Shown in pieces: positions 33,981 to 56,176 of a stretch of 64,000 nt of DNA (position 1 is its first letter; every line of letters begins with the position of its first letter). Source of the DNA: Bacteroidota bacterium (GTDB lineage Bacteria > Bacteroidota > Ignavibacteria > Ignavibacteriales > Ignavibacteriaceae); NCBI GenBank assembly GCA_022562275.1, contig JADFPP010000004.1, positions 1 through 64,000 on the forward strand. Reading direction: 5' to 3'. The position numbers and the translations under genes are program-made. Under the pieces are notes generated by a model. The model had not been told where the DNA came from. It saw only the letters and a list, made by a program, of their open reading frames with translations, and did not search any database.

Positions 33981-35498
33981 TTATTGTACTGTAATCTTTT
34001 CAATCGCCGTGAGTAAATCATTTTTAGAAAATGGTTTTACTAAAAATTTATCCGCACCCACCTGATAAAATTGAGCGATTTTATCGTGCATGAACTCACT
34101 TGATAACACAAGAACAGGTCGTTTAAAGGGATCATTTTCTTTAATTTCTCTTACCATTTCAAGGCATTTATCCCACAGATTTTTTGTTACATCCAGAATA
34201 ATAACCGAATATTCCTTTTCATTTATTATACTTACATCATAATTATCGAATTGATATACTTCGAAATTATAAGTGTCTCTAAGAAAAACCTTTATCAGAT
34301 CATAGGATTCACCTGAGTCGTCAAACATTAAAACTTTATTGAAATCAATATCACTTCGGGAAACCGTATCAGGTAATTCTCGCATCTGATTTTTAGAAAG
34401 TGGAAGTGTAATTGTTAATGTTGTTCCCACACCTTTAATGCTATCAACTAAAATAGAACCACCCATTTTTTCTATATACCTTTTCGATAATGCAAGCCCT
34501 AAACCGTTTCCTTCAAAATTTCTGCTTATGTTCAAATCTTCCTGACTAAATGGTTGATAAAGATGATCGAGATATTCAGATGAGATACCAACCCCTGTAT
34601 CTTTTATTTTACAGGTTGCTATTCCCCTTTCTTCTAAAAGATTTACTTCAACATCAATATAACCCTGAGCGGTAAATTTAATGGCATTATCTATAAGATT
34701 ATTTATTGCTGTTTCAGTACATTGTAAATCCATATCAACATAGATCTTTTGTTTTTCATAATATGCTTTGATATCTAAATTTTTATCAATGGCATTTTTT
34801 TTGTTAGTAGCTATGGAATTTTGCACTATTTCGCAGAGATTGTATGAGCTAATATCCATGTTATAATTACCAGCTTCAATCTGAGCAAACTCAAGCATTT
34901 GCGTAATACTTTTGAATAACCGGGAACTTCCGGAATACAAATTATCAAGATATACTTTTTCTTCTGCGGTAAACCTATCTCTTAAGTTTTCTTTAATAAT
35001 TGTAGAATATCCTAAAATAATGTTTAAAGGGGTTCTTAATTCATGGGAAAGTACTGTAAGAAAAGTGTTTTTCAATCTCTCTGCTTCATTACCCATATCT
35101 CTTGCTTTCTTAATCTCTTCTTCGGCTAAAAATTGCTCAGTTCGATCCTCGTGAAGAAGTACGGCATATATTTCATTATCATAGTTGATTGGAAAAATAC
35201 TCGTTTCAAGTAATGGAATTGTGGCATCTCTGTTTAATAGAAGTGAATCAACATAGTTATCAACCGTAGAATATTTTTGTTTTTCCAGAGCATCTTGTAT
35301 TAAATGTTTAATTTCCCTTCTGGCTAATTCATTATCATTAAATACATTGTACTCTTTAATTTCGGATAATGTATAACCCCATTGAGACGTAAACAATTCA
35401 TTTGCGTATATCACATATCCTTCAGTGTTTATTACCTGAATAGGAAATCTGATTGAATCATATAACAATCGAAAATATTTTAACAGGGATTCAGACAT
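33981..35498 (-). CDS. PAS hybrid histidine kinase with C-terminal receiver
   Basis: 505 residues. PAS domain (about 5-125; VINTEGYVIYANELFTSQWG), HisKA with the phospho-acceptor box FLTVLSHELRTPL (about 150), HATPase (about 255-375; NNLIDNAIKF, DTGVGIS, GNGLGLALSK), and a receiver (about 387-505; MFDDSG acid pair, phospho-Asp in VIILDVTKN, Lys in LVKPFS). There is no membrane segment, so it is a cytoplasmic sensor. It starts two bases after the GAF-ATPase gene, and the pair probably works as one signalling unit. The output partner is unknown. Confidence 0.9.
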   Translation of the reverse strand: MSESLLKYFRLLYDSIRFPIQVINTEGYVIYANELFTSQWGYTLSEIKEYNVFNDNELARREIKHLIQDALEKQKYSTVDNYVDSLLLNRDATIPLLETSIFPINYDNEIYAVLLHEDRTEQFLAEEEIKKARDMGNEAERLKNTFLTVLSHELRTPLNIILGYSTIIKENLRDRFTAEEKVYLDNLYSGSSRLFKSITQMLEFAQIEAGNYNMDISSYNLCEIVQNSIATNKKNAIDKNLDIKAYYEKQKIYVDMDLQCTETAINNLIDNAIKFTAQGYIDVEVNLLEERGIATCKIKDTGVGISSEYLDHLYQPFSQEDLNISRNFEGNGLGLALSKRYIEKMGGSILVDSIKGVGTTLTITLPLSKNQMRELPDTVSRSDIDFNKVLMFDDSGESYDLIKVFLRDTYNFEVYQFDNYDVSIINEKEYSVIILDVTKNLWDKCLEMVREIKENDPFKRPVLVLSSEFMHDKIAQFYQVGADKFLVKPFSKNDLLTAIEKITVQ

Positions 35499-35500
35499 AA

Positions 35501-36814
35501 TTAATTTACAGGCAAAGTAATTTTAATTTTAGCGCCACCTTCCGAATTTATAATCTCCATATTTCCATTGTGTCTATCTACAATACTTTTACAAAGAAAT
35601 AATCCATAACCACCCTTTTTTTCTATTATTGATGAACTAAATGGTTTTTCCTTTATCTCTGTGGGAAATCCTGGGCCATCGTCGGCAATTTCCAGGGTTA
35701 TTACATCCTCATCCGAATGTGATTTTATAGATATTTGTGCATCTCTTTTTGCTTCTGCGGAATTGGTAAATATATGCACAAATAAATGCTGTATTTGTTC
35801 CGAATCATATTTACAGGAAGGTAAATTATTTAACTCTGTCTTGAATGTTATCAAATTAAATTTTTTCATTGGAGAAAGGTATTTAATAACAGATTGAAGC
35901 GTTCTGTTAATATCGCCGGTATCCTTATTTAGATTAAGGATAGAAGTCTCAAGAAGAACCTGTGCGTATTTCTGAATATTTCTTATACTGTCAATAGATA
36001 CTTTAGCTTTTAGTTTTAATCTGTCAAATAATAATGTGTTGCTATTTTTTGAATTGCCTTCATAATCTTTTTGAGATTTTTCAATGGTTCGCATTAAACT
36101 TTCCGTTTCAAGCAATGCCAGATGAACCAAACCCTGAAGTGACTGACCGATTTCAGAATCGATACTTGATTTCAAAGTTTTACGCTCGGCTTTTATCAGT
36201 TGAGTGTTTGCTTCCTGTAAAGCAGCATTTGCAGCAACCTGCCCATTAAAAAGCTGTGCGTTTCTAATGGCAGCAGCAGCTTGTCCAGCAAGTATTTCAA
36301 ACGTTCCGGTAATCTCACGCACTTTTATTTTTTGCAAGAACTTACTATCAACATATATTACACCTATCTTTTTTCCTTCTGTTATAAGCGGAGAGCAGAG
36401 AATGGTTTGAAGATCTAATTTGAGGATACTTTTCGTGGGATCATAATTAGTATCGCTTTGTGCCCCTTCTAGAAATATTGATTGACCAGTGAGGAAAACA
36501 TCTTCAACAACTGAATTACTTACATTGAAAGAATCTTCTGCAACTTCACGATTTTCTGAATCTAAACCTAATTTATATTCAAGTTCATCTTTTTTACCTT
36601 TAAGAACAATAAAACCCCGTTCTGAATTTGTAAGTCTGATTGCATTTTTAAGTACAAGTTGTAGTACATCATCTAATATTAAAGTACGATTTACTGTATT
36701 AATTATATTTAGAATTGCTTCTAAATTTTTAACGCGCTCTGAAGATTCTTCGTCACCAAGTGTGGCTTTTAAACCCGCATCTATATTTTTCTTAAATTCT
36801 GAAAATCTCATCAT
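35501..36814 (-). CDS. GAF-domain histidine-kinase-like ATPase without a clear HisKA
   Basis: 437 residues. A GAF domain covers about 30-190 (INTVNRTLILDDVLQLVL, then GERGFIVL-like SERGFIVLKG, LCSPLITEGKKIGVIYVDS). A long helical segment (about 195-300) follows without an H-E/D-x-x-T/N-P box. The HATPase is at about 320-437 (HIFTNSAEA N-box, ADDGPGFP, GYGLFLCKSIV). It may depend on the neighbouring hybrid kinase for phosphotransfer. The GAF ligand is unknown. It is the first gene of the pair; the promoter should lie in the 36815-36926 gap. Confidence 0.8.
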   Translation of the reverse strand: MMRFSEFKKNIDAGLKATLGDEESSERVKNLEAILNIINTVNRTLILDDVLQLVLKNAIRLTNSERGFIVLKGKKDELEYKLGLDSENREVAEDSFNVSNSVVEDVFLTGQSIFLEGAQSDTNYDPTKSILKLDLQTILCSPLITEGKKIGVIYVDSKFLQKIKVREITGTFEILAGQAAAAIRNAQLFNGQVAANAALQEANTQLIKAERKTLKSSIDSEIGQSLQGLVHLALLETESLMRTIEKSQKDYEGNSKNSNTLLFDRLKLKAKVSIDSIRNIQKYAQVLLETSILNLNKDTGDINRTLQSVIKYLSPMKKFNLITFKTELNNLPSCKYDSEQIQHLFVHIFTNSAEAKRDAQISIKSHSDEDVITLEIADDGPGFPTEIKEKPFSSSIIEKKGGYGLFLCKSIVDRHNGNMEIINSEGGAKIKITLPVN

Positions 36815-36926: not shown

Positions 36927-37103
36927 TTAAAACAAAAACCTTGCTTTGTTTACTAAGCCTAAGCACAACGCAATTACCGCTTTATAAAAAGCAACCGAAT
37001 GAGCTTTATTCAAGTCCCATCGATTCATTGCATAATTAAGCAAGGTTTTACTTTTAAATTTAAGATTTCGTCCGTCTCTGCTAACAATCCATTTTTTAGC
37101 CAT
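36927..37103 (-). CDS. short ORF overlapping the methyltransferase stop (58 residues)
   Basis: ATG at 37103 lies inside the last codons of the DNA methyltransferase gene (ATGGCTAA overlap of 8 bases) and the frame stays open for 58 codons to TAA at 36927. The product is basic (MAKKWIVSRDGRNLKFKSK) with a hydrophobic second half (VAFYKAVIALCLGLV). Codon choice looks like the neighbouring genes and the overlap suggests translational coupling. I do not recognise it. It could be an accessory protein of the modification enzyme, a remnant of a longer gene, or chance. Confidence 0.45.
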   Translation of the reverse strand: MAKKWIVSRDGRNLKFKSKTLLNYAMNRWDLNKAHSVAFYKAVIALCLGLVNKARFLF

Positions 37104-38391: not shown

Positions 38392-38522
38392 TTCTACTCT
38401 CAATTTCTTCTAAAAACTAAGTAAAGATAACAAAACTCTATTTGAAAGTCTAGGATTTAATCTGTGCATATAACTTATTTATTAACCTGCACTTAATATT
38501 AATAGAAAACAAATATTATTCC

Positions 38523-38538
38523 TAGTTAAATACTCAAT
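38523..38538. repeat. left target-site duplication of the insertion sequence
   Basis: The 16 bases TAGTTAAATACTCAAT are identical to 39991-40006 and lie immediately outside the left inverted repeat. Confidence 0.9.
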
Positions 38539-43634: not shown

Positions 43635-43781
43635 TTATCTGGGAAACTACTATAATTATTTAGAGATAGTAAGAAACTAGTTTAAATTAAAATTTTTAAA
43701 AATAAAAGATATGCCTTTCCTCAATTATATAAAAGAGTTTACGGAATGAATTAAAGTATTACATGAAAAGATTTATAAAGA

Positions 43782-43809
43782 AAAAGCCTCCAATAAATTG
43801 AAGGCTTTT
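43782..43809 (-). terminator. rho-independent terminator of the tandem-repeat peptide gene
   Basis: A 10-bp hairpin with one mismatch (AAAAGCCTCC / GAAGGCTTTT) and an 8-base loop. Read on the minus strand it is followed by TTTTTCTTT. It lies 80 bases downstream of the repeat-peptide stop and before the metalloprotease gene, separating the two transcripts. Confidence 0.75.
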
Positions 43810-43888
43810 AAAGTAGGCAAATTTGAAATATTATTTCAATATCACCGTACGAACCTATTTTAGGCTATATTAAATAACTGTTAGAAAC

Positions 43889-44275
43889 TTATCTTGAAAA
43901 TCCATAACGGCTTCCAAGCTCATCAAGCTGTGAACCTGATCTTGAAAATCCATAACGGCTTCCAAGCTCATCAAGCTGCGAACCTGATCTTGAAAATCCA
44001 TAACGGCTTCCAAGCTCATCAAGCTGCGAACTTGATCTTGAAAATCCATAACGGCTTCCAAGTTCCTCTAGTTGTGAAGCGGATCTGAACTCAACATTTA
44101 TTGCATCATTCAGAAACTCTACGGTAACAGAGGAAGAATTTTGGGCTTCAGACACAGTTATTATATTATCTTGGTTAACGCGGTACCGGGTTGCTTTTTC
44201 AACATTATTAGCAACCTGTGCGTAACCGGACAAGAATAGCCCACCCACAAGTAGGGATAATATAAATAAACGCAT
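43889..44275 (-). CDS. small secreted protein made of four 16-residue tandem repeats
   Basis: 128 residues from ATG 44275 (a GTG at 44284 would add three). The signal peptide is clear (RLFILSLLVGGLFLSGYAQ). A short spacer (about 23-64) is followed by four head-to-tail units to the last residue: SASQLEELGSRYGFSR, SSSQLDELGSRYGFSR, then two identical SGSQLDELGSRYGFSR. Every unit begins after Arg and ends in Arg, so a trypsin-like protease would release equal 16-mers. There are no cysteines in the repeats and no T9SS tag. A sigma-54-like promoter lies about 105 bases upstream and a terminator downstream. I do not recognise the family. A multi-copy signal peptide precursor or a surface repeat protein are both possible. 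Confidence 0.8.
   Translation of the reverse strand: MRLFILSLLVGGLFLSGYAQVANNVEKATRYRVNQDNIITVSEAQNSSSVTVEFLNDAINVEFRSASQLEELGSRYGFSRSSSQLDELGSRYGFSRSGSQLDELGSRYGFSRSGSQLDELGSRYGFSR
43892..44083. repeat. four 48-bp tandem repeats inside the peptide gene
   Basis: Units at 43892-43939, 43940-43987, 43988-44035 and 44036-44083. The first three differ from each other by one or two bases. The fourth, which encodes the N-terminal repeat, is more diverged. 48 is a multiple of three, so copy number can change without breaking the frame. Confidence 0.97.
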
Positions 44276-44284
44276 AGCGCCCAC

Positions 44285-44744
44285 TCACAATTAGTTAATA
44301 TAATGACACATTTAAGAACTACTGCCTACCTCACCCTATACATAAGGATATACGTAGCCCTTAAAGGTGAAGTTAAATTCCAATGTTTGTGCCACTAGTA
44401 TATTCTTCAAATTGTTTGTATTTGGTTTGTTTTGTAAGTTTTTGATTGTAATAATTACTACAATTTTATAGTAATTAGCTGAGAGTGTAATGAATATTTA
44501 CAACATTTCATTGCTGTGGTTTATACGACGATTGTTTGTTTTTGTTAAAAAAAGTTAATATTTCTCAGTATGTAATTTGTCTTGAAACATCTGAACATTT
44601 GGATTTTTTTTGAATGATTATTAGGAACCTTCGCATAACCTCTTAAAGGGGGGCGCAGCATAACAAAAATGTTGGAATACAATAAGTGTTGTCAATTTTA
44701 AATAGTTGTTTTCCCAATTAAACAAGGTTACGCGAAGCCTCCTA
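44285..44744. other. 460-base upstream region of the repeat-peptide gene
   Basis: No gene is seen here. The region holds the sigma-54-like site near 44380 and most of an inverted-repeat element (44616-44750). The remainder is AT-rich, as expected for a region that activator proteins bind and bend. Confidence 0.6.
44380..44394 (-). promoter_or_regulatory. sigma-54-like promoter upstream of the repeat-peptide gene
   Basis: On the minus strand the site reads TGGCAC-AAACA-TTGG. The -24 element is perfect and the GG to -12 spacing is exactly ten bases, but the -12 pair is GG instead of GC. It points toward the repeat-peptide start and lies in the same intergenic region as the end of the sigma-54 activator gene. 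Confidence 0.45.
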
Positions 44745-44750
44745 TTATTC
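44616..44750. repeat. 135-bp element with 25-bp imperfect terminal inverted repeats
   Basis: Left arm 44616-44640 and right arm 44726-44750 match in 20 of 25 positions when inverted (core CTTCGC-TAACC). The right arm overlaps the stop codon of the sigma-54 activator gene. It could be a small non-autonomous mobile element or a large transcription-ending fold. Confidence 0.5.
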
Positions 44751-46127
44751 TTTTAAGAGTGTGTCTAGTTTAGGTCTTGATATCCCCAGTAGTTTAGCAC
44801 ATTGAGTTTTGTTGCCCTTCATTTTCTGTAAAACTTCAGATGCATAATACTTTTCAAGTTTCCTTATTGCAGTTGTACCATAATTAACATCTAACCTTAT
44901 AACATTATCCGGTATTGTACCATCGGAAGAGAATTCCTGGGAATCTATCTGGGTGCTTCTAATTAAATTTGAAAAATCGTTAAGCTTCAATTTATCATCC
45001 TCACTTAAAAGAACAGCTCGTTCAACAGCATTTCTTAACTCCCTTACATTACCCGGCCACGGATATCCTTTTAAAAAATGCTGAAGATCCTTACCAATTT
45101 TTCTGAATGATTTATCAAATTGATTATTAAACTCATTTATAAAATGATTTGCTAACATTACTATATCATCTTCTCTTTCTCTTAAGGGAGGTATCTCAAT
45201 CGAAACTACATTTAACCTGTGAAATAAATCTGTTCTAAAAAGTTTTTTTTCAACCATTGAATCAAGATCTTTATTTGTGGCAGAAATTATCCTTGCGTTG
45301 ATCGGAATATCTGCAACACCCCCAAGTCTTTTAATAACTTTTTTTTCAATTGCCCGTAATAACTTTGATTGGATACTGAGACTCAAATCACCGATCTCAT
45401 CCAGAAATAAAGTCCCCCTATCAGCTAACTCAAATAACCCAATTTTCCTGGTTCTTGCATCAGTGAACGCCCCTGCTTCATAACCGAAAAGTTCAGATTC
45501 CAGCAAACTTTCAGGAATTGCGGTGCACACAATATCAATGAATGGAAAAGCACCGGTTATACCATTGTTATGAATTGCCCTGGCAAACAATCCCTTGCCC
45601 GTACCTGTTTCACCCAAAATAAGAACATTAGCACTGCTTTTTTCAGAAACTTTTTTTGCAAGATTCACAACACGTAAGAGTTTTTCAGACTCCCCCATAA
45701 TTGAATGGATTCCTTCTTTGCTAACACCAAAAGTCCCCATTTTATTTGTTTCAGTTATATATGCTTTATTCGAAATTATTTCTGCTAGTAGAGAAGTGAA
45801 TTTCAATATTTCATATGGGAACACAAAAATATTATAGAATCCAAACTTAAGAAGTGAGGTGACAAAAAGTGCATCGGCATTACGAATAACAATGAGAATT
45901 TTATTACTTAATTGTTTTCTAACTGCTAAAACATCTTTTAGCTTTAATGATTCGGTTGAATCTATCTGCAATAATATTATATCATTATCTTCAGGCGAAA
46001 AACTATCCGGGAAAGAGAAATTAATTGGGATCCCCTTTAATATTAGCTGTTTCAAAGCTGAAGTTATTGAAACAACATCACTTGAATCGGAAAAGATTTT
46101 TATGTTTACTTGAGTTTCATCCATCAA
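44745..46127 (-). CDS. sigma-54-dependent activator with degenerate receiver domain
   Basis: 460 residues. Residues about 5-120 have a receiver-like alternating fold but lack the usual Lys (VFPYEILKF) and a clear acid pair, so normal phosphorylation is doubtful. The AAA+ domain (about 140-370) has Walker A GETGTGKG (172-179), the sigma-54 contact loop as GAFTDA instead of GAFTGA (219-224), and Walker B FLDEIGDL. A Fis-type helix-turn-helix ends it (NKTQCAKLLGISRPKLD). It follows the kinase gene by 8 bases, so the kinase may be its upstream signal. Its likely nearby target is the repeat-peptide promoter. Confidence 0.92.
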   Translation of the reverse strand: MMDETQVNIKIFSDSSDVVSITSALKQLILKGIPINFSFPDSFSPEDNDIILLQIDSTESLKLKDVLAVRKQLSNKILIVIRNADALFVTSLLKFGFYNIFVFPYEILKFTSLLAEIISNKAYITETNKMGTFGVSKEGIHSIMGESEKLLRVVNLAKKVSEKSSANVLILGETGTGKGLFARAIHNNGITGAFPFIDIVCTAIPESLLESELFGYEAGAFTDARTRKIGLFELADRGTLFLDEIGDLSLSIQSKLLRAIEKKVIKRLGGVADIPINARIISATNKDLDSMVEKKLFRTDLFHRLNVVSIEIPPLREREDDIVMLANHFINEFNNQFDKSFRKIGKDLQHFLKGYPWPGNVRELRNAVERAVLLSEDDKLKLNDFSNLIRSTQIDSQEFSSDGTIPDNVIRLDVNYGTTAIRKLEKYYASEVLQKMKGNKTQCAKLLGISRPKLDTLLKE

Positions 46128-46135
46128 TTAGCTCA

Positions 46136-49100
46136 TCATACAACTTGAATTTTCTCAAGCTTTTGCATAGCCTTCAGTCGTTCTTCCTTCTGTAAATACG
46201 CAGTTTTAAATTGCGTTGTTTCTATGTTTTCGGCAATTGAATTTATAAGATCCCTCGTGTAAATTATGAAATTTTTTGCTTTATTAAAATTGCCCCTTTC
46301 AGAATAACTTTCTGCGAGAGCAAATAGAACTTTCCAGGTCAGTTCAACAATTCCTTCTTCTTCCAACAATTTATAGGCTTCTTCAAAATGCTCGATTGCC
46401 GGTGAAGAATTATCATAACTAAAATAACGAGAAACCAAACCGAGTAAATATTCACGATTTGCATTAAAGATGTTATTTCGCTTGCAAACCTTTATGAAAG
46501 ATGAATTTTTTAGTTCTTCTTCTGCTTCGGAGATTAATTCCAATTCTATAAGATAATTTAATAAAATTGTATTAACTGTAACATAATTTATTAAATCTTC
46601 TTTCTCAAGATAATCATCCCTAATCATAACCAGATCTGTAGTATTAATATTTTTCCCGGCTGCAATTAAATTTAAATTATTCAGAAGCAACAGGTCATTT
46701 TTATATTTCTCTTTCACAGGAGAATCTTCTAGCAAATTTGAAGCATCCTTGCATAAATCATTCAACCTTTCAGCATTACCTATCGTGAAGTGAAAATAAC
46801 CAAGCAGAATCATAACCGGGATAAGTTCTTCAACATTATTTAATTTTTCAAATATCGTTTTTGATTCATCCAGAACCTCAAATGCCTTTTGGTATTCACA
46901 ACTGGTTAAATAACTTTCACCTAAATTACTCAGAACCAAACCTTCATTCTTTTTGTTGCCCTGGCTAAGAAATATATTATGAGCTCTTTTATAATATTTA
47001 ATTGCTTTATCAAAATTTAATTCTTCAAAGTAATATACTCCATTATTTAAAAGCAGCAGACCCTCCTGCGATAAATTTCCTATTGAGCGGTTAAGATTCA
47101 GCGCTTTATTCCAGCTCTCTTCAGCCTTTGCTTTATTTCCAATGATGTTATTCATAATTCCAATATTTAGTTCAATAGAAGCTACTTTACTAAGTAAACC
47201 TTCTTTTTCAAAAAAACTTAGGGCATTTTCAAACTGTATCAGGGCAGACCTCGAATCATTTTCATTATAATGGTAACACATTCCTAATAAATTATGAAGT
47301 CGTCCCCTGTCTTCATCAGTAACCTGTTGTCTTTCTAAAATCTCGTTACACATTTCAGCTGCTTCGGTAAAATTATTTAAATCAAATTTAGCATAAGCAA
47401 TTTCAACTAAAAGTTTATTTTTTCTGTATTTATCATCAACTTTTAGGATTAAAGACTCTAATAATTCCTTTCCTTCTTCTAATTTTCCTGAACCAATTAA
47501 AGAGCTTCCTTTAATAATATATAGCTCGAGTATTTTATCTTTTTGTAATGCTCTAATATCAACTTTTTTTACAATTTCGAGTGTAGATTTAAATTCACTT
47601 AGATTGTATAAAGTTTCGGATAATTTATATCTTACCTCATTTTTAGAAGTCTCATTAATATTAATTTCGAGTAAATGAGTTAAAATGCCTCTTACGTATG
47701 AATATGCCGATAGTTTTTGTGCGCCATCAATTTCTTCATTCCAGATTAAATATGCCTTATCGGGTTTTCCTGCTAATTCATACTGACGTGCCAATTCAGT
47801 ATTATTAAATCCGGGTAGTTCCTCTTGAATATTCTCCGCTAAACCAAAGTGAAACTTTTCTTTGTTATCAATAAGAGAATAGATGTGCTGTTTTAATCTG
47901 GTAGATGTAATTACAGGTGCCGGGTTCTCGTTAATTGCTCGTATAATATTATTGTATTGTAAATTTGAAAGAATTTTAATTAATTCATTGTGATCTTTAC
48001 CGAGTAAACTTGCCAGGGAACTTTGTTCTAAGCTATTATCAAATGCGGAAATGATTTTAGCAGCATCAATCTCATCATTATTCAGATTTGAAATTCGAAG
48101 ATCATAAATCGCACTTTGCGATCCCTCCAAATTCGTAAGTCTTTCTACATCCTCATTTAATTTTACTCCGTCCCGTTCAAATATTATTATCTGCAATCCT
48201 ATTAAATCACTTATGAATTCAATTATGTTGCCCGGGAGCAGATCTGCGTACAAAAGAATTATTTCCTTAAGTTCATTTTTGGGAAACAAGTTATAAAAAG
48301 CTAACTCCAGGTAATCCGACAGTTGTCTGTCGGTAAATGAACCGATTGTTAGTTCTTTCAGATTATTAATATTGCCGGAAGTGTAGTCGATGTCAGATGA
48401 TTCCGAAATAATTACTTTAATACCATTAACCTGTAGAAGTGGAATTAATTCGGAAATAATTTCACCGGAAAACTTATCAAATAGATTGTAATCATCTATC
48501 AACAAAGTAAATTTTGATCTGCTTGTAATGATTGGCAATAATGAATGCAATCCGTCAATAAAATCTTTTTCAGATTTATTTAAAAAAGACAAAACCAATG
48601 ACAGCTCATTATCATCAAGGTTTGTAAATACCTGCCGAGTAAATATTATTCTTTTTATTATATGCCTAATAAGATCTAAACCGGATATGCCTTGAGTGAT
48701 ATTAATTAAAATTGAATCCGGAATTATTTTGTACATATGATTAATCAATAAACTTTTTCCGCTGCCGCCAAATCCTTTTAATGTAAAAACTTCGCTGCTG
48801 TTCTTATCATTTATATATGAACTAAGAATATTTACAAAGTCCTGTCTACCGCAAAAAACTTTTGCAGGCACAAAATTGTTATAGAGTGTAGCATCAATTT
48901 CAAAACCCAGATCACAAATAACCTGCAATGCATTTGAATATCTTTTTTCCGGATCTTTTTCCAGTAACTTTTTAACAACAGTAATTAATTCAGTACTGAA
49001 AACTGTAGATTCTGGAAAATGAAACTCATTCTCAACCTGAGCCTTATAAATATCAAGTTCAATCCCGGTTTCAAAAGGAAGTTTGCTATATATAATCTCA

Positions 49101-49702
49101 TATAATAATATTCCCAGCGAGTATAGATCAACTCTATGATCATGACGTTCTTTTTTTAATAATTCGGGTGCTATGTATTGGGCTGTTCCCTTAATAACCC
49201 GTTCCTTTTCATTTGGAAGATATTGTGCAAGACCAAGATCAATCAATTTGACTTGCAAAGAATCGGAAGCAGATGAGACAAGTATATTTTCTGGCTTAAG
49301 ATCATAATAGATGTAATTCGATTGATGCAGATAATATAAGACTGAGCATATCTGTTTTAATATTTCTCTTAATTTTTCTTCTTCCTTTAACGAATCATAT
49401 TTAAATAATTCGTCTGATTCGAAATATTCAAGTGAAATGAAATTGGAACCAATTTTTATCCGATCATCCACATCAACTTTTACTACTTCACCAATCTCAA
49501 ATGCTTTAATAATATTCGGATGATCTAATTTTCTGAGCGTAAAATATTCATCCTTAAATGATCTAAGCTCTTCTTCGCTTACATCAGGAGGAAGGAATTT
49601 AACTGCAACTACTGCAGCGCCAAAATCAACATCCTTACAGAGGAATACTTCGCTTCTGCCTTTTCCAATCTGTTTAAGTATTTCAAATCTGTAGTTGATC
49701 AT
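46136..49702 (-). CDS. Ser/Thr protein kinase fused to ATPase and TPR repeats
   Basis: 1188 residues, cytoplasmic. Kinase domain (about 5-265): IGKGRSEVFL glycine loop, VAVKFL Lys35, catalytic loop YYDLKPEN (HRD replaced by YYD, so a non-RD kinase; Asp134 kept), DLG instead of DFG (Asp155), and GTAQYIAPEL. A STAND/AAA-type ATPase follows (about 280-600; Walker A GFGGSGKS, 310-317; LLIDDYNLFD). From about 640 the protein is TPR-like helical repeats (for example ALNLNRSIGNLSQEGLLLLN). The architecture resembles PknK-type kinases. Its start overlaps the OppC-type permease stop (ATGA), and the sigma-54 activator follows. It probably senses a ligand with the TPR part. Confidence 0.92.
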   Translation of the reverse strand: MINYRFEILKQIGKGRSEVFLCKDVDFGAAVVAVKFLPPDVSEEELRSFKDEYFTLRKLDHPNIIKAFEIGEVVKVDVDDRIKIGSNFISLEYFESDELFKYDSLKEEEKLREILKQICSVLYYLHQSNYIYYDLKPENILVSSASDSLQVKLIDLGLAQYLPNEKERVIKGTAQYIAPELLKKERHDHRVDLYSLGILLYEIIYSKLPFETGIELDIYKAQVENEFHFPESTVFSTELITVVKKLLEKDPEKRYSNALQVICDLGFEIDATLYNNFVPAKVFCGRQDFVNILSSYINDKNSSEVFTLKGFGGSGKSLLINHMYKIIPDSILINITQGISGLDLIRHIIKRIIFTRQVFTNLDDNELSLVLSFLNKSEKDFIDGLHSLLPIITSRSKFTLLIDDYNLFDKFSGEIISELIPLLQVNGIKVIISESSDIDYTSGNINNLKELTIGSFTDRQLSDYLELAFYNLFPKNELKEIILLYADLLPGNIIEFISDLIGLQIIIFERDGVKLNEDVERLTNLEGSQSAIYDLRISNLNNDEIDAAKIISAFDNSLEQSSLASLLGKDHNELIKILSNLQYNNIIRAINENPAPVITSTRLKQHIYSLIDNKEKFHFGLAENIQEELPGFNNTELARQYELAGKPDKAYLIWNEEIDGAQKLSAYSYVRGILTHLLEININETSKNEVRYKLSETLYNLSEFKSTLEIVKKVDIRALQKDKILELYIIKGSSLIGSGKLEEGKELLESLILKVDDKYRKNKLLVEIAYAKFDLNNFTEAAEMCNEILERQQVTDEDRGRLHNLLGMCYHYNENDSRSALIQFENALSFFEKEGLLSKVASIELNIGIMNNIIGNKAKAEESWNKALNLNRSIGNLSQEGLLLLNNGVYYFEELNFDKAIKYYKRAHNIFLSQGNKKNEGLVLSNLGESYLTSCEYQKAFEVLDESKTIFEKLNNVEELIPVMILLGYFHFTIGNAERLNDLCKDASNLLEDSPVKEKYKNDLLLLNNLNLIAAGKNINTTDLVMIRDDYLEKEDLINYVTVNTILLNYLIELELISEAEEELKNSSFIKVCKRNNIFNANREYLLGLVSRYFSYDNSSPAIEHFEEAYKLLEEEGIVELTWKVLFALAESYSERGNFNKAKNFIIYTRDLINSIAENIETTQFKTAYLQKEERLKAMQKLEKIQVV

Positions 49703-50985
49703 TTGCTAACCCCCGGATTGATTGATCTATTTAATCTTTTACCGAAATCATTAGCAGAGAAAATGGTAAATATTAATATGAGTCCGGGAAAAGAAATCAT
49801 CCACCAAGCTTTGGTTACATAACGCTGACCTGATTCTATCATCGCACCCCACGATGGGTACGAGCTTCCTGTTCCCAACCCTAGATAGCTTAATGCAGAT
49901 TCAGCCAAAATAACATTACTAAACTGGAATACTATGCTAACAACGAGCGGGATAAATATAACCGGGAGAATTTCATTAGTGAGAATTTTTCTTTTGGTCA
50001 GACCCAACATTCCAGCCGTGAGGATATAATCTTTATTTTTTTCTGAAAGCACTTCACTCTTAACTATTTTGAACAAACTCATCCACCCGGATAACCCCAG
50101 CACAATAATTACAGATGTAATTGAATTGCCGAACAATGCAAGTATCAATACAATTAGATAAATAATCGGGAATGCTAAGAACAGATCCGTCAACCTGCTG
50201 AAAATAATATCAATAACTCCACCTTTAAATCCTGCAATAAACCCTAAAAATAATCCAATTATTAAAGAAACCATAACTGCAGAAATACCAACAAGTAAAG
50301 AAATTCTGGTGCCGTAAATTATCCGTGCAAATATATCCCGACCAAACTCATCTGTTCCAAGAATATATGTTTTGCTCGTTATATCAGCCACACCATTATT
50401 AACCCAAAGTGCTGAAAGAGTGATTTTTTTTTCTATCCCCTTTTGTGTATAGATAATATAGTCTGACATTATTTTTATTGAATTAGCAATAACTATACTT
50501 TCATCATAAGATGGCTTTAATACATTATTCTTATAATTAATGAATTCTTCAATTGATGTGCCCTGAGACTTTTCTCCTTTATTTAAATGAAGGATCATCA
50601 CAGTAGAAAAAGGTGAAAGTAATTTTGTTGCTTTCAGATCTTTTTGGAAATCAGGATTTTCATCGGTTATTATTAGGGCAAAAATAAACGATATCATTAA
50701 AAGTACTATTACCGTATAAGAAAAATTAATCGAATTTTTTAACCAGGACAATCTATTTCTAAAAGCATACAACAATACTGGAATAATTAAAAACAATTTA
50801 ATCGATAGTAATGCGTCAAACAAATTAAAATCAAGTATATGAATAGCATTGCCAAATTCTGACATTAACAAATAAGAATATTTTATCCAAAGTAAAATTA
50901 AATTTAATAGCAGTTCTGCCCGGAAGATAATTATCACCAGCCAGGATAAAATAATTAAGTACCATATCCGCGGTTTGAATTTCAA
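49699..50985 (-). CDS. peptide ABC transporter permease, OppC/DppC type
   Basis: 428 residues, longer than the usual 300. The C-terminal 260 residues are a standard permease: GTDEFGRDIFARIIYGTR, then about five helices with the EAA-type loop AGMLGLTKRKILTNEILP and the closing LSYLGLGTGSSYPSWG. The N-terminal 150 residues add extra membrane segments and a hydrophilic periplasmic insert of about 100 residues (TDENPDFQKDLKA onward) that could contact the binding protein. It overlaps the OppB-type gene and the kinase gene by four bases each, which couples transporter and kinase translation. Confidence 0.9.
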   Translation of the reverse strand: MKFKPRIWYLIILSWLVIIIFRAELLLNLILLWIKYSYLLMSEFGNAIHILDFNLFDALLSIKLFLIIPVLLYAFRNRLSWLKNSINFSYTVIVLLMISFIFALIITDENPDFQKDLKATKLLSPFSTVMILHLNKGEKSQGTSIEEFINYKNNVLKPSYDESIVIANSIKIMSDYIIYTQKGIEKKITLSALWVNNGVADITSKTYILGTDEFGRDIFARIIYGTRISLLVGISAVMVSLIIGLFLGFIAGFKGGVIDIIFSRLTDLFLAFPIIYLIVLILALFGNSITSVIIVLGLSGWMSLFKIVKSEVLSEKNKDYILTAGMLGLTKRKILTNEILPVIFIPLVVSIVFQFSNVILAESALSYLGLGTGSSYPSWGAMIESGQRYVTKAWWMISFPGLILIFTIFSANDFGKRLNRSINPGVSK

Positions 50986-51968
50986 TTCATTAATCCTTTT
51001 ATCATTCTTTTATCAATTTTCATTTTTATCAGATCGGCAATAAAGTTTGAAATTATCATTAGCAGCCCTGCAGCAAGAGCACAGCCGATCACAAGTGGAT
51101 AATCTCTAGAAAAAACAGAGTCCATCATTAACCTTCCCATTCCCGGTAAACCAAAAATTATTTCAGTTATGAGTGCCCCTCCTAAAAGTATTCCAAGTTC
51201 AATTCCTGCAACTGAAAGAAGAGGACGAATTGCATTTGGCAAAACATGTTTTTTTAATATTATTTTCTCATCATATCCACTTGCTCTTAGATTAAGAATG
51301 AAGTTCTGCTGATAGGTATCTTCCAAATTATCTCTAAGGTACTTGTAGAACATTGCAATGCCGGCTGAAGATAAAGTTATTAATGGAAGCGTAAGATGCC
51401 AGAAATAATCTCCTATTTTTCCTGCGAAGGAAAAAGAATCAAACTCCAAAGCTTTACTTCCTGATGATGGAAATAAATCAAGCTGGACAGAAAATATATA
51501 AATAAGAAACAGACCTAAAACAAATGCTGGAGTTGCATAAGCAACTAAGGAAAATTTTGAAACTATTTTATCGAATAAGCCGCCAGGATTCCTGATAGAT
51601 TTTAATGCGAGATAAAACGAAACTACCATCTGAATTATAAAAGAGAGAAAAGCAAATACAAAAGTGAAAGAAAGAAACTGCAATACAACCGTTAATACCG
51701 GCAATCTGTAATTATATGATATTCCCAGATCCCCCCTGAATATATTAACAACAAAAATAATATATTGGTTGAAGACTGGCTTATCTAAATTGAAATCAGA
51801 AGTTACTTTTTTCATAAGCTCGGGACTAAATTCAGCAGACAAATATTTTTGTGCTGGATCGCCCGGTGATAGTCTGATTAGAATGAATAAAAAACTTATA
51901 AGCAAAAAAAGAGTTATCAGCGAACTGATTATTCTCTTCAATAAAGCTTTAAGGAACTCTTTGTTCAT
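50982..51968 (-). CDS. peptide ABC transporter permease, OppB/DppB type
   Basis: 328 residues from ATG 51968. The frame is open further upstream to 52049, but that extra stretch lies in a REP-like repeat, so MNKEFLKALLKRI is taken as the real N-terminus. The family signature FILIRLSPGDPAQKYL follows the first helix, about six helices follow, and LRASGYDEKIILKKHVLPNA is the EAA loop. It ends with an ATGA overlap into the OppC-type gene. Together with the binding protein and the divergent ATPases it makes a complete peptide or nickel-type importer. Confidence 0.92.
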   Translation of the reverse strand: MNKEFLKALLKRIISSLITLFLLISFLFILIRLSPGDPAQKYLSAEFSPELMKKVTSDFNLDKPVFNQYIIFVVNIFRGDLGISYNYRLPVLTVVLQFLSFTFVFAFLSFIIQMVVSFYLALKSIRNPGGLFDKIVSKFSLVAYATPAFVLGLFLIYIFSVQLDLFPSSGSKALEFDSFSFAGKIGDYFWHLTLPLITLSSAGIAMFYKYLRDNLEDTYQQNFILNLRASGYDEKIILKKHVLPNAIRPLLSVAGIELGILLGGALITEIIFGLPGMGRLMMDSVFSRDYPLVIGCALAAGLLMIISNFIADLIKMKIDKRMIKGLMN

Positions 51969-51998
51969 CTGGTAATAATACCTTATTTTTACAACAAT

Positions 51999-52070
51999 AT
52001 CCCTGCGGGGACGCAGGGATGAGCTCTTAAATTCAGCCCGTGTGAGCAAGCGTCCTCGCTTGCGGTTTCC
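51999..52070. repeat. REP-like repeat, copy 1
   Basis: About 72 bases with two hairpins: CCCTGC/GCAGGG (52001-52018) and GCAAGCG/CGCTTGC (52046-52063). A close copy in the same orientation lies at 52722-52790, on the other side of the broken transposase gene. Confidence 0.85.
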
Positions 52071-52095
52071 ACTAAATTCGACCCGTTTACATTAT

Positions 52096-52651
52096 TTAAA
52101 CCCTTAACTTACGAATATCATCAATCGGGATTATAGGTTCACTACCTTTATCATAAAAACAAGCGGACGAATATTCGTAATCGGATCTTTCATTAGCTAA
52201 CTGCCAATTTTTAGCAATAGGATTATTGTGCACATATTCCAATTTCTGTTTCAAATAATCTACTGAATAGATATTCTTCGCTTGTATTTTTTGCCAAAAA
52301 TAATGCTTCGATTTTAAATTTTCTTTTTGTGCAGCATCTTTAAAATATTTCAACAATCTCCAATCTCCAATTTTTAAATTCTTTAGAAATTCGTGAGCAG
52401 TAAACGAACTAAAAATTTGTAATATCTGGTTAATGCTATATTCATCAGTTGGTTTACTAATAAAATGAAGATGATTTGGCATTATTACAAACGCATATAA
52501 TTTTATCCTAATTATTGGTGTGAAGCCATTTTAATGAGTTTAAAACAATATCTCTATATTGTTTTTTTTTCAATATCCTAACCCAATCAACAATTGTGGC
52601 AGTTACAAAAAATAAATGCCCTTCAATGTGAAGTGCTCTAAAAGTTTCCAT
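52096..52651 (-). pseudogene. REP-associated tyrosine transposase (RAYT, IS200/Y1-like), one frameshift
   Basis: ATG at 52651 opens a frame with the RAYT start (METFRALHIEGHLFFVTAT) and runs through KWLHTNN to a stop at 52508. The following frame continues exactly where the family continues: RIKLYAFVIMPNHLHFI with the HUH motif (NHLH), then LEYVHNNPI and the end at 52096. Deleting one base near 52509-52516 restores a product of about 180 residues. The gene is flanked by two copies of a REP-like repeat, as is usual for RAYTs. It is probably inactive. It lies between the binding-protein gene and the OppB-type gene and may have inserted into an older operon. Confidence 0.85.
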
Positions 52652-52721
52652 TACTTTTCTTGTAGGAGTTAACTCTTATAAAGTATAAAAAACTAAAATA
52701 TGTTTCTTTTGCGCTGCTGTC

Positions 52722-52790
52722 ATCCCTGCGGGGACGCAGGGATGAGCTGTTAAATTCAGCCCGCGTGAGTAAGCATCCTCTGCCGTTTCT
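52722..52790. repeat. REP-like repeat, copy 2
   Basis: Direct copy of 51999-52070 with the same CCCTGC/GCAGGG hairpin. The second hairpin is decayed by a short deletion (GAGTAAGCATCCTCTGCC). Just downstream, 52823-52845 carries CCCCAATATATCGGGG and the inverted copy of the 14-base stretch also seen near 11190. Confidence 0.85.
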
Positions 52791-52846
52791 ATTCATCTGT
52801 TTATAATTTTATATTTTTGCCCCAATATATCGGGGACTCGTTTCAT

Positions 52847-54508
52847 CTAATTTTCAACTGACCATTCCCAGCAGTGAGTTATTGCACCAAGAGGACTTAT
52901 ATCAATATTTTCAACTTTACTATTGATTCCAACAATATTAGATATCCAATACATAAAAGTTGCCGGCTGGTCTTCGTGGATAATTTTTTGAAACTCAAAA
53001 TACAATTCTCTCTGCTTCTCTTTGGGTGAAGGCTTTTTTAATTTATCTATAATTATATCAGCATAATTATTCTGATAGCTAACAAAATTTAGTGGGGTCG
53101 TTTGCAAATCAGAATACCAGAAAGCTTTTAATTCGATAGGTACGGGGATATACCAGGCAGCCATCCAGGCATTTAAACTTTTCGCAATAAGTTTATCAAT
53201 AAAAGCTCCCATCTCTAAAGTCTCTATGCTCATTCTGATCCCAACAGCTTTTAAATTATTCTTAACTATAGTTGATGCATAATTTCTTAATGGGTTACCT
53301 CCAGGGATTGTCAAATTGAATTCAAATTCCAAACCGTTTTTATCAATAATTCCATCATTATTTGTATCCCTCCATCCCTGATCAGAAAGAATGTTTCGTG
53401 CCTTTTCAGGATCATAATCATATTGTACTATATCGGGGTTATAATAATATGCAAATATAGGGGAAACAGGTGTTGCAGCAAGTACACCATAATTGTATAA
53501 ATATTCTTCAAGGATTTCATTTCTGTTTATTGCATAAGTGAGTGCAATTCTAATTTCCCTACTGCCAAATAAGTTATTCGGAGTGATCTTTCCATTTTCC
53601 GTGTAGCTCTTCGGATCTATATTATTCCATCCAATATAATCGTATTCTCTCCCATCAATAGTTTTTATTTTGAGGTCATTCATATCGTTTAATTCTTCCA
53701 TATCCTCAGTTTGGATCAATTCCATAAGATCGATTTCATTTTTTTTTAACTGCGTTAACCTGGCTGTATAATCCGGAATAATTTTGAATACTAATTCATC
53801 AATGCTACCCGGATTATAGAGAAAAGAGTTTTTATTTATACCAAGAGTTATGGTTTGATTTCTATCCCATTTTATTAAAACAAACGGACTGTTTGTAACC
53901 GGATTAAAATTATCTTCAGCTGTGGCTAAATCTTTTCTTTCATATTTACTAAATATGTGTTTAGGAATTACGGGGTGAACAATATCAAGAAAATTTGGTG
54001 TTGAGCCAGGCAAAAAATTGATTTGTAATTCATAATCTGATTTAACCACAAAGGTTTTTTCAACATCAATATGATTTTCTTCATCAGTATAAAGGATTTC
54101 AAAGATTCCATACAGTCTGCTATTCACATTAGGATCTGAATAAACATCGAGGGAGAAAACAACATCTTCAGCAGTAAAAGGTTCTCCGTCTGACCATTTT
54201 ACATCATTGCGTAAATAAAAAGTGATCGACGATGAATCTGATGCCCATTCCCAACTTTTAGCTAACATCGGAAATGCCTCGAGTTCTCCCAGATTTTCAT
54301 TCCACTTAAAATCCGCTAAGCTTAAGTAAAGTAATTCTGTAATTGCGCCTTCATCCACACTGGAAGCAAATAATGGGTTAAATGTATTTACATCGGCTGG
54401 AATTCCAATCACAACTCTGTTAGGATGTTCAGTTTTTTTATTGCAGGAAGATAGAAATACAAATATAAGAATGACAAGTATGAGTGATGACTTTTTAATC
54501 ATGTTCAA
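52847..54508 (-). CDS. peptide-binding lipoprotein of ABC transporter (SBP family 5)
   Basis: 553 residues. A lipoprotein signal ends in LSSCNKK (Cys about residue 22). The mature protein has the family-5 pattern: VVIGIPADVNTFNPLFA, the WSDGEPFTAEDVVFSLD signature, and the C-terminal half with FRPWDPS-like YWISNIVGINSKVENI. It is anchored in the periplasm or outer membrane and delivers oligopeptides or similar ligands to the permeases. It lies upstream of the permeases on the same strand but is separated from them by the RAYT pseudogene, and is divergent from the ATPase genes. Confidence 0.93.
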   Translation of the reverse strand: MNMIKKSSLILVILIFVFLSSCNKKTEHPNRVVIGIPADVNTFNPLFASSVDEGAITELLYLSLADFKWNENLGELEAFPMLAKSWEWASDSSSITFYLRNDVKWSDGEPFTAEDVVFSLDVYSDPNVNSRLYGIFEILYTDEENHIDVEKTFVVKSDYELQINFLPGSTPNFLDIVHPVIPKHIFSKYERKDLATAEDNFNPVTNSPFVLIKWDRNQTITLGINKNSFLYNPGSIDELVFKIIPDYTARLTQLKKNEIDLMELIQTEDMEELNDMNDLKIKTIDGREYDYIGWNNIDPKSYTENGKITPNNLFGSREIRIALTYAINRNEILEEYLYNYGVLAATPVSPIFAYYYNPDIVQYDYDPEKARNILSDQGWRDTNNDGIIDKNGLEFEFNLTIPGGNPLRNYASTIVKNNLKAVGIRMSIETLEMGAFIDKLIAKSLNAWMAAWYIPVPIELKAFWYSDLQTTPLNFVSYQNNYADIIIDKLKKPSPKEKQRELYFEFQKIIHEDQPATFMYWISNIVGINSKVENIDISPLGAITHCWEWSVEN

Positions 54509-54644
54509 AGCTTTTATGTTTTGTGATAAATATTACTTTATTTATGAGTCGTAACTAAAAAACTATATTATCAGCAAAATGTTTTTTAGAGTAGACTCAA
54601 TTTATTATTTTGCTAAATAAATAAAAAATAAGATATTATGTACG

Positions 54645-55382
54645 ATGCTTAAAGTTAATATTGACAATATAACTATATGTAACAACCATACTAAACATTT
54701 ACTTTTAAAGAACGTAAATTTCGAACTCCTAAAAGGAAAAGTTTATACTATTCTGGGTAAGAACGGAACAGGGAAATCAACATTAATTAAATCGTTAACA
54801 GGGTTGCTCAACAAAAATATATTCCAAACAAACGGAACAGTATTATTTGAAGATGAAAATATTCTTACTTGTGATGCGGAAACATTACAGCAAGTAAGAT
54901 TTAATAAAATCAGATATGTTTTTCAGGATGCAGTAAATAGTTTTGATCCTCTTAAGACGTTTCAATACTATTTTAAAAATTCATTTGCGCCGAGAGACCA
55001 AATTAATGAACTATTAAATTATTTTCTTCTACCGGATTATAATCACATTTCGCAATTATATCCTTATGAAGTTAGCGGCGGAATGGCTCAGCGGCTAAGT
55101 ATAGTATTGGCATTTATTGCAAATCCTCAATTATTAATATTGGATGAACCAACCTCAAATATTGATTATGCAATCTCAAATTTATTGCTGCTTAAGTTGA
55201 TGGAACTTACTAAAGAAGATAGAACTGTATTACTTGTAACACAGGATATTAATTTTGCGGGAAAAGCTAGTGATGAAATTTCACTTATTTCAGATGGAAC
55301 GATTTCTGCATTCAAAAGTAAGACTGACTTTTTTGCACAGCAGGATGTTGATTTACTAAATTCAATTGATGAATTACAATGA
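54645..55382 (+). CDS. peptide ABC transporter ATPase (DppD-like) with altered H-loop
   Basis: 245 residues. Walker A GKNGTGKST, Q-loop VFQDAVNSFDPL, signature VSGGMAQR and Walker B LLILDEPTSNID are intact. The H-loop His is replaced by Gln (LLVTQDINFAG), which in ABC proteins usually lowers or abolishes hydrolysis at that site. This and the following ATPase overlap by four bases (ATGA) and should pair as a heterodimer. At 245 residues it also lacks the C-terminal oligopeptide-transporter extension normally found in OppD/DppD. It is transcribed divergently from the binding-protein gene. Confidence 0.9.
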   Translation: MLKVNIDNITICNNHTKHLLLKNVNFELLKGKVYTILGKNGTGKSTLIKSLTGLLNKNIFQTNGTVLFEDENILTCDAETLQQVRFNKIRYVFQDAVNSFDPLKTFQYYFKNSFAPRDQINELLNYFLLPDYNHISQLYPYEVSGGMAQRLSIVLAFIANPQLLILDEPTSNIDYAISNLLLLKLMELTKEDRTVLLVTQDINFAGKASDEISLISDGTISAFKSKTDFFAQQDVDLLNSIDELQ

Positions 55383-56176
55383 AAGAAGAACTTATACAAT
55401 TACAGGATGTTTCATATTCTGTAGAAAATAACCAGCTGACTTTTGGTAAAACAGATACCGCTGATATATTGTTTGATATAAATTTTTCTATCTATAAAGG
55501 TGAGGTGCTGGGAATATGCGGCGAATCCGGTGGGGGTAAATCAACCCTCGCAAAGTTGATTGCAGGAATAATTAAACCAACAAACGGAGAACTTATATTG
55601 AGCAAAAAGTTATCCGCAAATAAAAATAACCCGAGAACAATCCAGATTCTTTTTCAGAACAGCAGTAATTTAATAAACCCTTACAGAAAAGTGAGCACTA
55701 TTATTGATGAAGCCATACGACTCTCCGGTGCAAATAAAGAAAAGATTACAGAAAAAAAAATTGAATTGTTTGAAACACTTTGTATAAACCAAACGCTTTT
55801 TAAAAGAAGAGGAATGGAACTAAGCGGCGGAGAAAGGCAGAGAGTTGCGCTTGCAAGATTACTTGCGCTTAAGCCAAAAGTATTAATACTGGATGAACCT
55901 TTCTCTGCGCAGGATATTACATCACAGCTTAATTTTGTAAAAGTGTTAAAATGTATCAATAAAGATTTTGAAGTAACAATGATATGCATAAGCCACAATT
56001 TGAAAATACTAAAGAATTTTGCAGAAAGAGTAATTGTTATACGAAATGGAAGGATAGTTGAAATGGGAGATACAATAAAAATATTTGACTCACCAGAATA
56101 TCCGTACACAAAATTTTTATTACGCGCTGAAGAGTTTTCTTTAACTAAAGAAGAAATTCATGCTCACAGAAACTAA
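55379..56176 (+). CDS. peptide ABC transporter ATPase (DppF-like)
   Basis: 265 residues with all catalytic motifs: GESGGGKST, Q-loop ILFQNSSNLINPY, signature ELSGGERQRVALARLLA, Walker B LILDEPFSAQD and the H-loop His in MICISHNLKIL. The C-terminal GDTIKIFDSPEYPYTKFLL is the standard OppF/DppF ending. It probably carries the active hydrolysis for the heterodimer with the altered-H-loop partner. It ends the + strand transport pair. Confidence 0.93.
   Translation: MKEELIQLQDVSYSVENNQLTFGKTDTADILFDINFSIYKGEVLGICGESGGGKSTLAKLIAGIIKPTNGELILSKKLSANKNNPRTIQILFQNSSNLINPYRKVSTIIDEAIRLSGANKEKITEKKIELFETLCINQTLFKRRGMELSGGERQRVALARLLALKPKVLILDEPFSAQDITSQLNFVKVLKCINKDFEVTMICISHNLKILKNFAERVIVIRNGRIVEMGDTIKIFDSPEYPYTKFLLRAEEFSLTKEEIHAHRN

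Follow-up and report, generated by a model that had tools for sequence, protein, structure and literature searches.

The 64,000-nt window that we analysed (positions 1 to 64,000 of contig JADFPP010000004.1, from a 3.4 Mb draft genome of the Ignavibacteriaceae) holds a locus in which a small secreted repeat protein, here called PEP, is encoded beside a Ser/Thr kinase-ATPase-TPR (tetratricopeptide repeat) protein (KIN), a sigma-54 activator (EBP) and an Opp-type peptide transporter. Gene positions were taken from the open reading frames (ORFs) within the window, and domains were called with Pfam profiles. Read in the direction of transcription, the minus strand carries SBP, a truncated REP-type transposase, OppB, OppC, KIN, EBP, PEP and PD40, with two ABC ATPase genes divergent from them (Table 1). 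OppB and OppC overlap at 50982-50985, OppC and KIN overlap at 49699-49702, and KIN and EBP are 8 bases apart (46128-46135). An earlier note on this DNA had claimed these ORFs, their strands, the four-base overlaps and the 8-base gap, and all of these are as it stated. Pfam likewise bears out its gene identities, with Pkinase, AAA_16 and TPR in KIN, Sigma54_activat and HTH_8 in EBP, BPD_transp_1 in both permeases, SBP_bac_5 in SBP and ABC_tran in both ATPases. The genes it claimed are thus present, but the locus runs on beyond them to a putative protease gene, PD40, that the note missed. Our conclusion from the comparisons that follow is that this locus is a real, conserved and specific system.

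Table 1. Features of the locus and of its surroundings, in positions of the window
Feature	Coordinates	Strand	Remarks
PEP, secreted repeat protein, 128 aa	43889..44275	-	signal peptide MRLFILSLLVGGLFLSGYA, then a leader of ~45 aa (motif NVEKATRYRV) and four 16-mers up to the stop
Four tandem 16-mer units	43892..44083 (44036-44083, 43988-44035, 43940-43987, 43892-43939)	-	each ends in tag SRYGFSR
-24/-12 (sigma-54) promoter TGGCACAAACATTGGA	44379..44394	-	-12 element TTGG in place of TTGC; counterpart in 18/18 PEP genes
Enhancer site GTAAATATTCATTAC, GTAA-N7-TTAC	44487..44501	-	107 bp upstream of -24 element
Second palindromic site TAGTAATTATTACA, nearer promoter	44447..44460	-	found by eye; counterpart GGTAA..TTACC in relatives
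EBP, sigma-54 activator	44745..46127	-	degenerate receiver, AAA+ (GAFTDA), Fis-type helix-turn-helix
KIN, Ser/Thr kinase - ATPase - TPR	46136..49702	-	Pfam; catalytic Lys/Asp kept in 60 homologues
OppC-type permease	49699..50985	-	BPD_transp_1
OppB-type permease	50982..52049	-	taken from its first start codon; an ATG further in may be the true start
SBP, oligopeptide-binding lipoprotein	52847..54508	-	SBP_bac_5; AppA relative
ABC ATPase 1 (OppD/NikD-like), divergent	54645..55382	+	ABC_tran
ABC ATPase 2 (OppF-like)	55379..56176	+	ABC_tran
PD40, predicted outer-membrane zinc peptidase, 1210 aa	40002..43634	-	motifs, PD40 repeats
GAF-HATPase protein	35501..36814	-	usually directly downstream of PEP-PD40 or LIP-TPR genes in relatives
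PAS-HisKA-HATPase-REC hybrid kinase	33981..35498	-	after GAF protein in relatives

PEP, whose likely start is the ATG at 44275, carries what the earlier note described, namely a signal peptide and a run of 16-mers, of which there are exactly four (SASQLEELGSRYGFSR, SSSQLDELGSRYGFSR and, twice, SGSQLDELGSRYGFSR) and which reach the stop codon. Between species the first nine positions of the unit (SxSQLxELG) are nearly constant, and the positions of its last seven residues, which we call the tag, are variable. The number of repeats varies among PEP homologues and reaches 19, with the units homogenised within each species. Units within arrays show a pS of 0.335 against a pN of 0.032, and the between-unit pN/pS, pooled over 34 genomes, is 0.096. 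Draft contigs (L002, L004, L013, L015, L028-L031) often break within the repeat array, so repeat counts from drafts are minima. The residue at the repeat boundary is Arg here, R or K in most relatives, and Q, T or H in some. The earlier note had taken release of an Arg-bounded 16-mer to be how the peptide is made; relatives have K, T, Q or H in place of the terminal Arg, which speaks against excision at Arg as the rule, and Arg-C-like excision as a general mechanism was ruled out by the T, Q or H found at the boundary in some species. Selection and covariation point instead to the 7-residue segment. The AlphaFold model of PEP, which was of low confidence (58.6) and was not used, has short helices. 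As a separate observation, the 5' leader of the PEP transcript (44276-44378, minus strand) folds better than shuffled sequences (z -2.4); outside the genus the leaders of relatives fold differently, and there is no Rfam match.

We surveyed 80 genomes of the Ignavibacteriaceae for this arrangement. PEP homologues are present in 36 of them, and the conserved order is ABC2-ABC1, divergent from SBP-OppB-OppC-KIN-EBP-PEP-PD40, usually followed by the GAF kinase and the PAS hybrid kinase; synteny of all locus genes extends over dozens of genomes. Given the repeat-gene homologues in 36/80 genomes and the shared gene order, we exclude a chance origin of the locus. Two genomes of one genus (L040, L041) have KIN followed directly by PEP, without the activator. 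The core locus also reaches other families of the order and the class, where KIN identity is 28-39%. The earlier note had proposed, as a check, to look in related genomes for the repeat protein together with the kinase, the activator and the importer; they are conserved together, both in synteny and in counts. The same note had set against its idea the case of a locus with this kinase and transporter but no repeat protein. Such loci do occur, but a lipoprotein with a tag of the same kind sits in them, behind the same enhancer. In these PEP-less clusters the gene behind EBP encodes this lipoprotein (LIP, ~185 aa), followed by a ~405-aa TPR protein and then by the GAF kinase. This type of OppC is present in 51 of the 80 genomes, and OppC and a tag carrier (PEP or LIP) occur together in 48, OppC alone in 3, a carrier alone in 5 and neither in 24 (Fisher 1.6e-12).

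LIP is a family unrelated to PEP that stands in for it in many loci and carries the same tag at its C-terminus. It gave 97 matches in 44/80 family genomes; in a sample of 396 genomes from the phylum it lies within the class, with one weak hit only outside. Members encoded behind EBP end, for example, in HFSRYGFAK, HFSRYGWSK or HFSRYAFIK. Within a genome, the LIP tail corresponds to the seven residues that end the PEP repeat, a heptapeptide particular to each genome (SRYGFSR here), as in the PEP/LIP pairs SRYAFAQ/SRYAFAQ, SRYIFAK/SRYIFAK, SRYGWAT/SRYGWAT, ARYGFTR/ARYGFTR and SRFGWVR/SRFGWVR. The two tags match at 7/7 positions in 13 of the 26 genomes with both carriers. Shuffling PEP among all genomes yields a mean of 0.8 such matches, and shuffling it within genera only yields a mean of 6.0 and a maximum of 12, with 0/5000 shuffles reaching 13. 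Matched tags differ at 1-7 of their 7 codons, the serine being nearly always TCN in one and AGY in the other, and because the codons differ the tags of PEP and LIP are not copies of one DNA segment. Synonymous divergence and differing codons likewise rule out DNA-level gene conversion as the source of the homogenised repeats or of the matching tags.

Several observations on LIP stand apart from this comparison. LIP genes stand in tandem arrays, with as many as five on one contig, and free TPR genes of ~412 aa often accompany them (L102 1-5036, L166, L173, L187), and a stand-alone SBP_bac_5 lipoprotein related to the SBP of the cluster lies behind several LIP-TPR arrays, far from permeases (L170, L171, L172, L173, L185, L187). 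A second class of tag, SRYGFVN or SRYGFIN, occurs alongside the PEP-matching tag in several genomes and is possibly a separate channel. Two loci have both LIP and PEP behind EBP with unlike tags (L053 8218-9823, SRYTWAK vs SVYGYSK; L054 8796-10177, SRYGWGK vs SSYGYSK).

The sigma-54-like promoter that the earlier note had claimed before the peptide gene is present and conserved. The motif TGG[CT]A[CT]-N5-[TC]TG occurs in 18/18 complete PEP upstream regions, usually ~100 bp before the start, and a GTAA-N7-TTAC site lies 105-109 bp upstream of the -24/-12 element in 17/18. Any GTAA-N7-TTAC site is contained in ~5% of random 350-mers. The same site with the same spacing precedes LIP genes that lie behind EBP (e.g. 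G060, G024, G025, G152). We rejected the -24/-12 element alone as evidence for EBP, the same motif preceding many unrelated genes of the genome; since that motif is general in the genome, GTAA-N7-TTAC is the specific part. EBP itself has an AAA+ domain with Walker A and a helix-turn-helix (HTH), an RpoN gene is present in its own genome, and a -24/-12 promoter with an upstream enhancer lies at the target, as expected of a sigma-54 activator. Its receiver domain departs from the response-regulator pattern: 32 homologues have Gln where the phospho-Asp would be and 3 have Asp, and the common variants lack Lys at the receiver Lys site. The GAFTGA loop reads GAFTDA here and GAFT[DNS]A in most homologues. 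Given the degenerate receiver, we conclude that EBP is not a normal two-component regulator. EBP most likely controls the PEP gene, and the position of the promoter makes positive feedback on PEP likely.

KIN has the catalytic residues of a Hanks-type kinase, with K36, D135 and D156 kept at ≥95% in 60 homologues, and the Arg of its HRD motif is replaced (YYDLKPEN). Pfam detects no HTH or Rap domain in KIN, and only TPR families in the ~412-aa TPR proteins linked to LIP. Reading of the tag by a cytoplasmic TPR domain should make tags and TPR domains change together. We compared tag distances with KIN-TPR distances by partial Mantel tests in which the kinase and ATPase domains of KIN served as controls, the tags of 23 genomes having been entered by hand. 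The correlation is 0.40 (n=49) and, within the family, 0.42 (n=38), at P=0.001, the lowest value that the test can give, and it holds on removing any genus. The same tests showed no co-divergence of the tag with the kinase domain, the ATPase domain, OppB, OppC or EBP. When the tags were replaced by pseudo-tags, built from columns matched for diversity, 0/2000 sets from EBP and 0/2000 from the kinase and ATPase domains reached the observed value. Twenty of the best 30 tag-associated KIN columns are in the TPR region, mostly at residues 780-1080, and the columns that co-vary most strongly lie at about residues 813, 850, 853, 905 and 957. For 54 pairs of LIP tags and adjacent TPR proteins the partial r is 0.27, and pseudo-tags give a mean of -0.13 and a maximum of 0.13, 0/2000 reaching the observed value. 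Tag divergence thus appears to follow the TPR domain of KIN specifically, on evidence that is strong but indirect.

SBP is a clear member of its family (SBP_bac_5, 240.6 bits against a cut-off of 32.4), its best relative of solved structure is Bacillus subtilis AppA (1xoc, E 9.9e-51), and the Opp genes both co-localise and co-occur with the tag carriers. PD40 has a signal peptide, HELVH followed 48 residues on by WYHEG (HELVH-x48-E), PD40 repeats and an apparent C-terminal beta-barrel, and H352, E353, H356, W402 and E405 are kept at ≥95% in 20 homologues. From these motifs we predict a zinc peptidase of MA-clan (gluzincin) type with an outer-membrane barrel. Pfam gave no peptidase match for PD40, and AlphaFold gave no confident fold for its N-terminal half (pLDDT 39; not used). 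PD40 is present in 34/36 genomes with PEP against 4/44 others (Fisher 9.6e-16) and absent from most LIP-only genomes, and we see in it the natural candidate for PEP maturation or export.

The shared tag, its co-divergence with TPR domains, the promoter and enhancer, and the co-occurrence of the protease all point to the tag as a recognised peptide. We think it probable that these genes form a circuit of export, processing and import in which the TPR kinase reads the tag and PEP is under the control of the activator. PEP would be exported via Sec, and PD40, encoded next to it, would most likely cut it, so that each 16-mer gives a short peptide holding SRYGFSR. The Opp system (the AppA-like SBP, OppBC and the two ATPases) would bring this peptide into the cytoplasm, where it would bind the TPR superhelix of KIN and alter KIN activity. 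KIN would act, directly or not, on the neighbouring EBP, and EBP, binding the GTAA-N7-TTAC enhancers, would drive the sigma-54 promoter of PEP and so close a feedback loop. LIP C-termini may feed the same peptide pool, and the free TPR proteins paired with them may be additional receptors. Release, import, TPR binding and phosphorylation, the sign of the feedback and a use of the peptide between cells are points that we infer from sequence comparison. The earlier note had largely the right idea, in that co-occurrence, the sigma-54 promoter (with its enhancer) and tag-TPR co-divergence agree with it, and the Arg-bounded 16-mer as a general rule does not. Its gene set for the circuit also holds, except that it missed LIP with the same tag, the TPR proteins of ~412 aa paired with LIP and the predicted protease linked to PEP.

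A number of observations weigh against the circuit as we propose it. Co-divergence of SBP with the tag is weak (P 0.02-0.14 with Hamming distances, up to 0.24 with BLOSUM), and distal LIP genes mostly lack the GTAA-N7-TTAC enhancer. The LIP tag of the window's own genome, SRYGWSR, is one residue off the SRYGFSR of its PEP. In G014, G019 and G020 the tags of PEP and LIP differ (SSYGYSK vs SRYGWGK, etc.), so that PEP and LIP do not in every case supply a single ligand. Further residues follow the tag in some LIPs, making it not always terminal, and some genomes (G018, G038; both drafts) have LIP tags and no detected Opp cluster. The circuit also leaves the exchange of peptides across the outer membrane unexplained. 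Finally, partial Mantel statistics can be anti-conservative, which is why we take the tag-TPR co-divergence as strong but indirect, although the domain and pseudo-tag controls speak against an artefact.

The main rival explanation is self-monitoring, in which tag peptides cut from PEP and LIP in the periplasm would have no need to leave the cell and would be returned by Opp, and KIN would read the status of export, of the protease or of the envelope. This is a variant of the circuit above that shares its molecular steps, and our confidences in the two overlap; all of the genetic evidence for the circuit fits it equally. It would suit the anchoring of LIPs in the membrane and their occurrence in arrays, the signal peptide and apparent barrel of the predicted protease, and the retention of peptides by diderm cells. 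Tags that are species-specific, in a single version common to both carriers of a genome, look however like specificity between lineages, for which pure self-sensing has no need, and tandem amplification suggests that quantity matters. We hold self-monitoring to be possible, if somewhat doubtful.

The other alternatives give the tag a structural role or none. Curli, for example, are built from a repeat protein, CsgA, and an anchored partner, CsgB, that shares its repeat sequence, and PEP could similarly be an extracellular repeat or fibre protein that LIP tails anchor or nucleate by homotypic contacts, with the Opp-kinase-activator genes only regulating it when nutrient peptides are sensed. An identical tag in an anchored and in a repeated secreted protein, together with the variable repeat number, is what such assembly would give. 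It gives no reason to expect the tag to co-diverge with the TPR domain of a kinase that has no signal peptide, or with TPR proteins adjacent to LIP, and in LIP-only lineages a repeat protein for the tails to anchor is missing; beyond this co-divergence, the case differs from curli in having no sequence relation to CsgA/CsgB. A Pfam scan of PEP gave no hit, to an amyloid family or otherwise, and its model, at low confidence, has no beta-solenoid. We consider surface assembly unlikely. The position of the tags at or near C-termini, and the co-occurrence of PD40 with PEP, could alternatively mark a sorting or docking tag for a secretion or processing machine (e.g. PD40), the kinase circuit being unrelated. 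However, LIP-only genomes without PD40 keep both the tag and the kinase cluster, and the TPR co-divergence is again unaccounted for. A general sorting tag was rejected on the grounds that the tag of the window's genome is limited to two proteins, PEP and one LIP (on contig C18), and that a family-wide scan for terminal tags before stop codons returned PEP, LIP and background-like matches; we judge any sorting role to be quite unlikely. Opp systems are common in nutrition and SBP is a generic SBP_bac_5 member, but ordinary uptake of nutrient oligopeptides with a kinase regulator would make the repeat protein and the tag matches incidental. Against it stand the synteny, the tag covariation, an enhancer specific to the tag gene and the TPR co-divergence; the covariation statistics already contradict it, and we regard it as very improbable.

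Around these genes lie some further elements. Between OppB and SBP, at 52096-52482 on the minus strand, is a REP-associated transposase of tyrosine type, N-terminally truncated, that was not seen there in the relatives read. Between PD40 and the GAF kinase (37096-39867) are a gene for a DNA N6/N4-methylase whose C-terminus is SNase-like and an IS481-like transposase, which look like an insertion since the GAF gene is directly behind PD40 in several relatives; the same methylase is found near PEP in L048. A scan of 43500-55000 with Rfam gave no convincing known structured RNA.

Parts of this system have counterparts elsewhere. Enterococcal sex pheromones derive from lipoprotein signal peptides and are taken up by Opp-type import. 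LIP resembles them as a proposed lipoprotein source of an imported peptide, the difference being that the tag belongs to the C-terminus of the mature protein and not to the signal peptide. With activators of NtrC/AtoC type EBP shares the AAA+ core, the Fis-type HTH and a -24/-12 promoter with upstream palindromes; it differs from them in the receiver Gln for Asp, in GAFT[DNS]A for GAFTGA and in a neighbour that is a Ser/Thr and not a histidine kinase. Opp importers carry the peptides of RRNPP systems, and B. subtilis has the AppA/Opp importers (1xoc; PMC10569065); SBP is closest to AppA among solved structures, and here the importer has a dedicated linkage to a kinase and an activator. The nearest comparison is RRNPP(A) quorum sensing of the Bacillota (Rap-Phr, PlcR-PapR, Rgg-SHP etc.; PMC10075063, PMC11343458), in which tandemly duplicated pheromone precursors exist (PMC11343458) and of which the largest published search was confined to Bacillota and viruses (PMC10075063). 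Such systems release mature peptides of about 5-10 residues from the cell. Likeness extends to a secreted precursor, a predicted short peptide, an Opp-type importer, a putative cytoplasmic TPR sensor and linkage of precursor and receptor, PEP or LIP lying behind kinase and activator and LIP directly before a TPR gene in 54 pairs. KIN, on the other hand, lacks the N-terminal HTH or Rap-type bundle that precedes the C-terminal TPR of RRNPP receptors. The proposed receptor is instead a kinase-ATPase-TPR protein, the output is a sigma-54 activator, the hosts are diderm Ignavibacteria, and there are up to 19 homogenised repeats, a second, unrelated lipoprotein carrier and a linked predicted zinc peptidase. 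Given the receptor without HTH or Rap, the sigma-54 output and the two unrelated carriers, we conclude that the system would work like RRNPP but is not a member. Whether it forms a class of its own for peptide communication in diderm Ignavibacteria, with a heptapeptide code on two unrelated secreted carriers, a Ser/Thr kinase with a TPR pocket, a sigma-54 output and free TPR receptors, is to our minds evenly balanced.

A search of the literature, with subscription papers and preprints outside its reach, found no description of this system or of pheromones in Ignavibacteria, and as far as we found import-type peptide signalling is documented mainly in Gram-positive Bacillota and not in Ignavibacteria. 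If our reading is true, import-type TPR peptide signalling would exist in a diderm lineage as well, with a kinase as its receptor and sigma-54 as its output. It would also offer a natural specificity code, in which dozens of species each have their own tag and their own TPR pocket, making peptide-receptor co-evolution directly testable, and candidate signals would become available in a group that is known chiefly through metagenome-assembled genomes.

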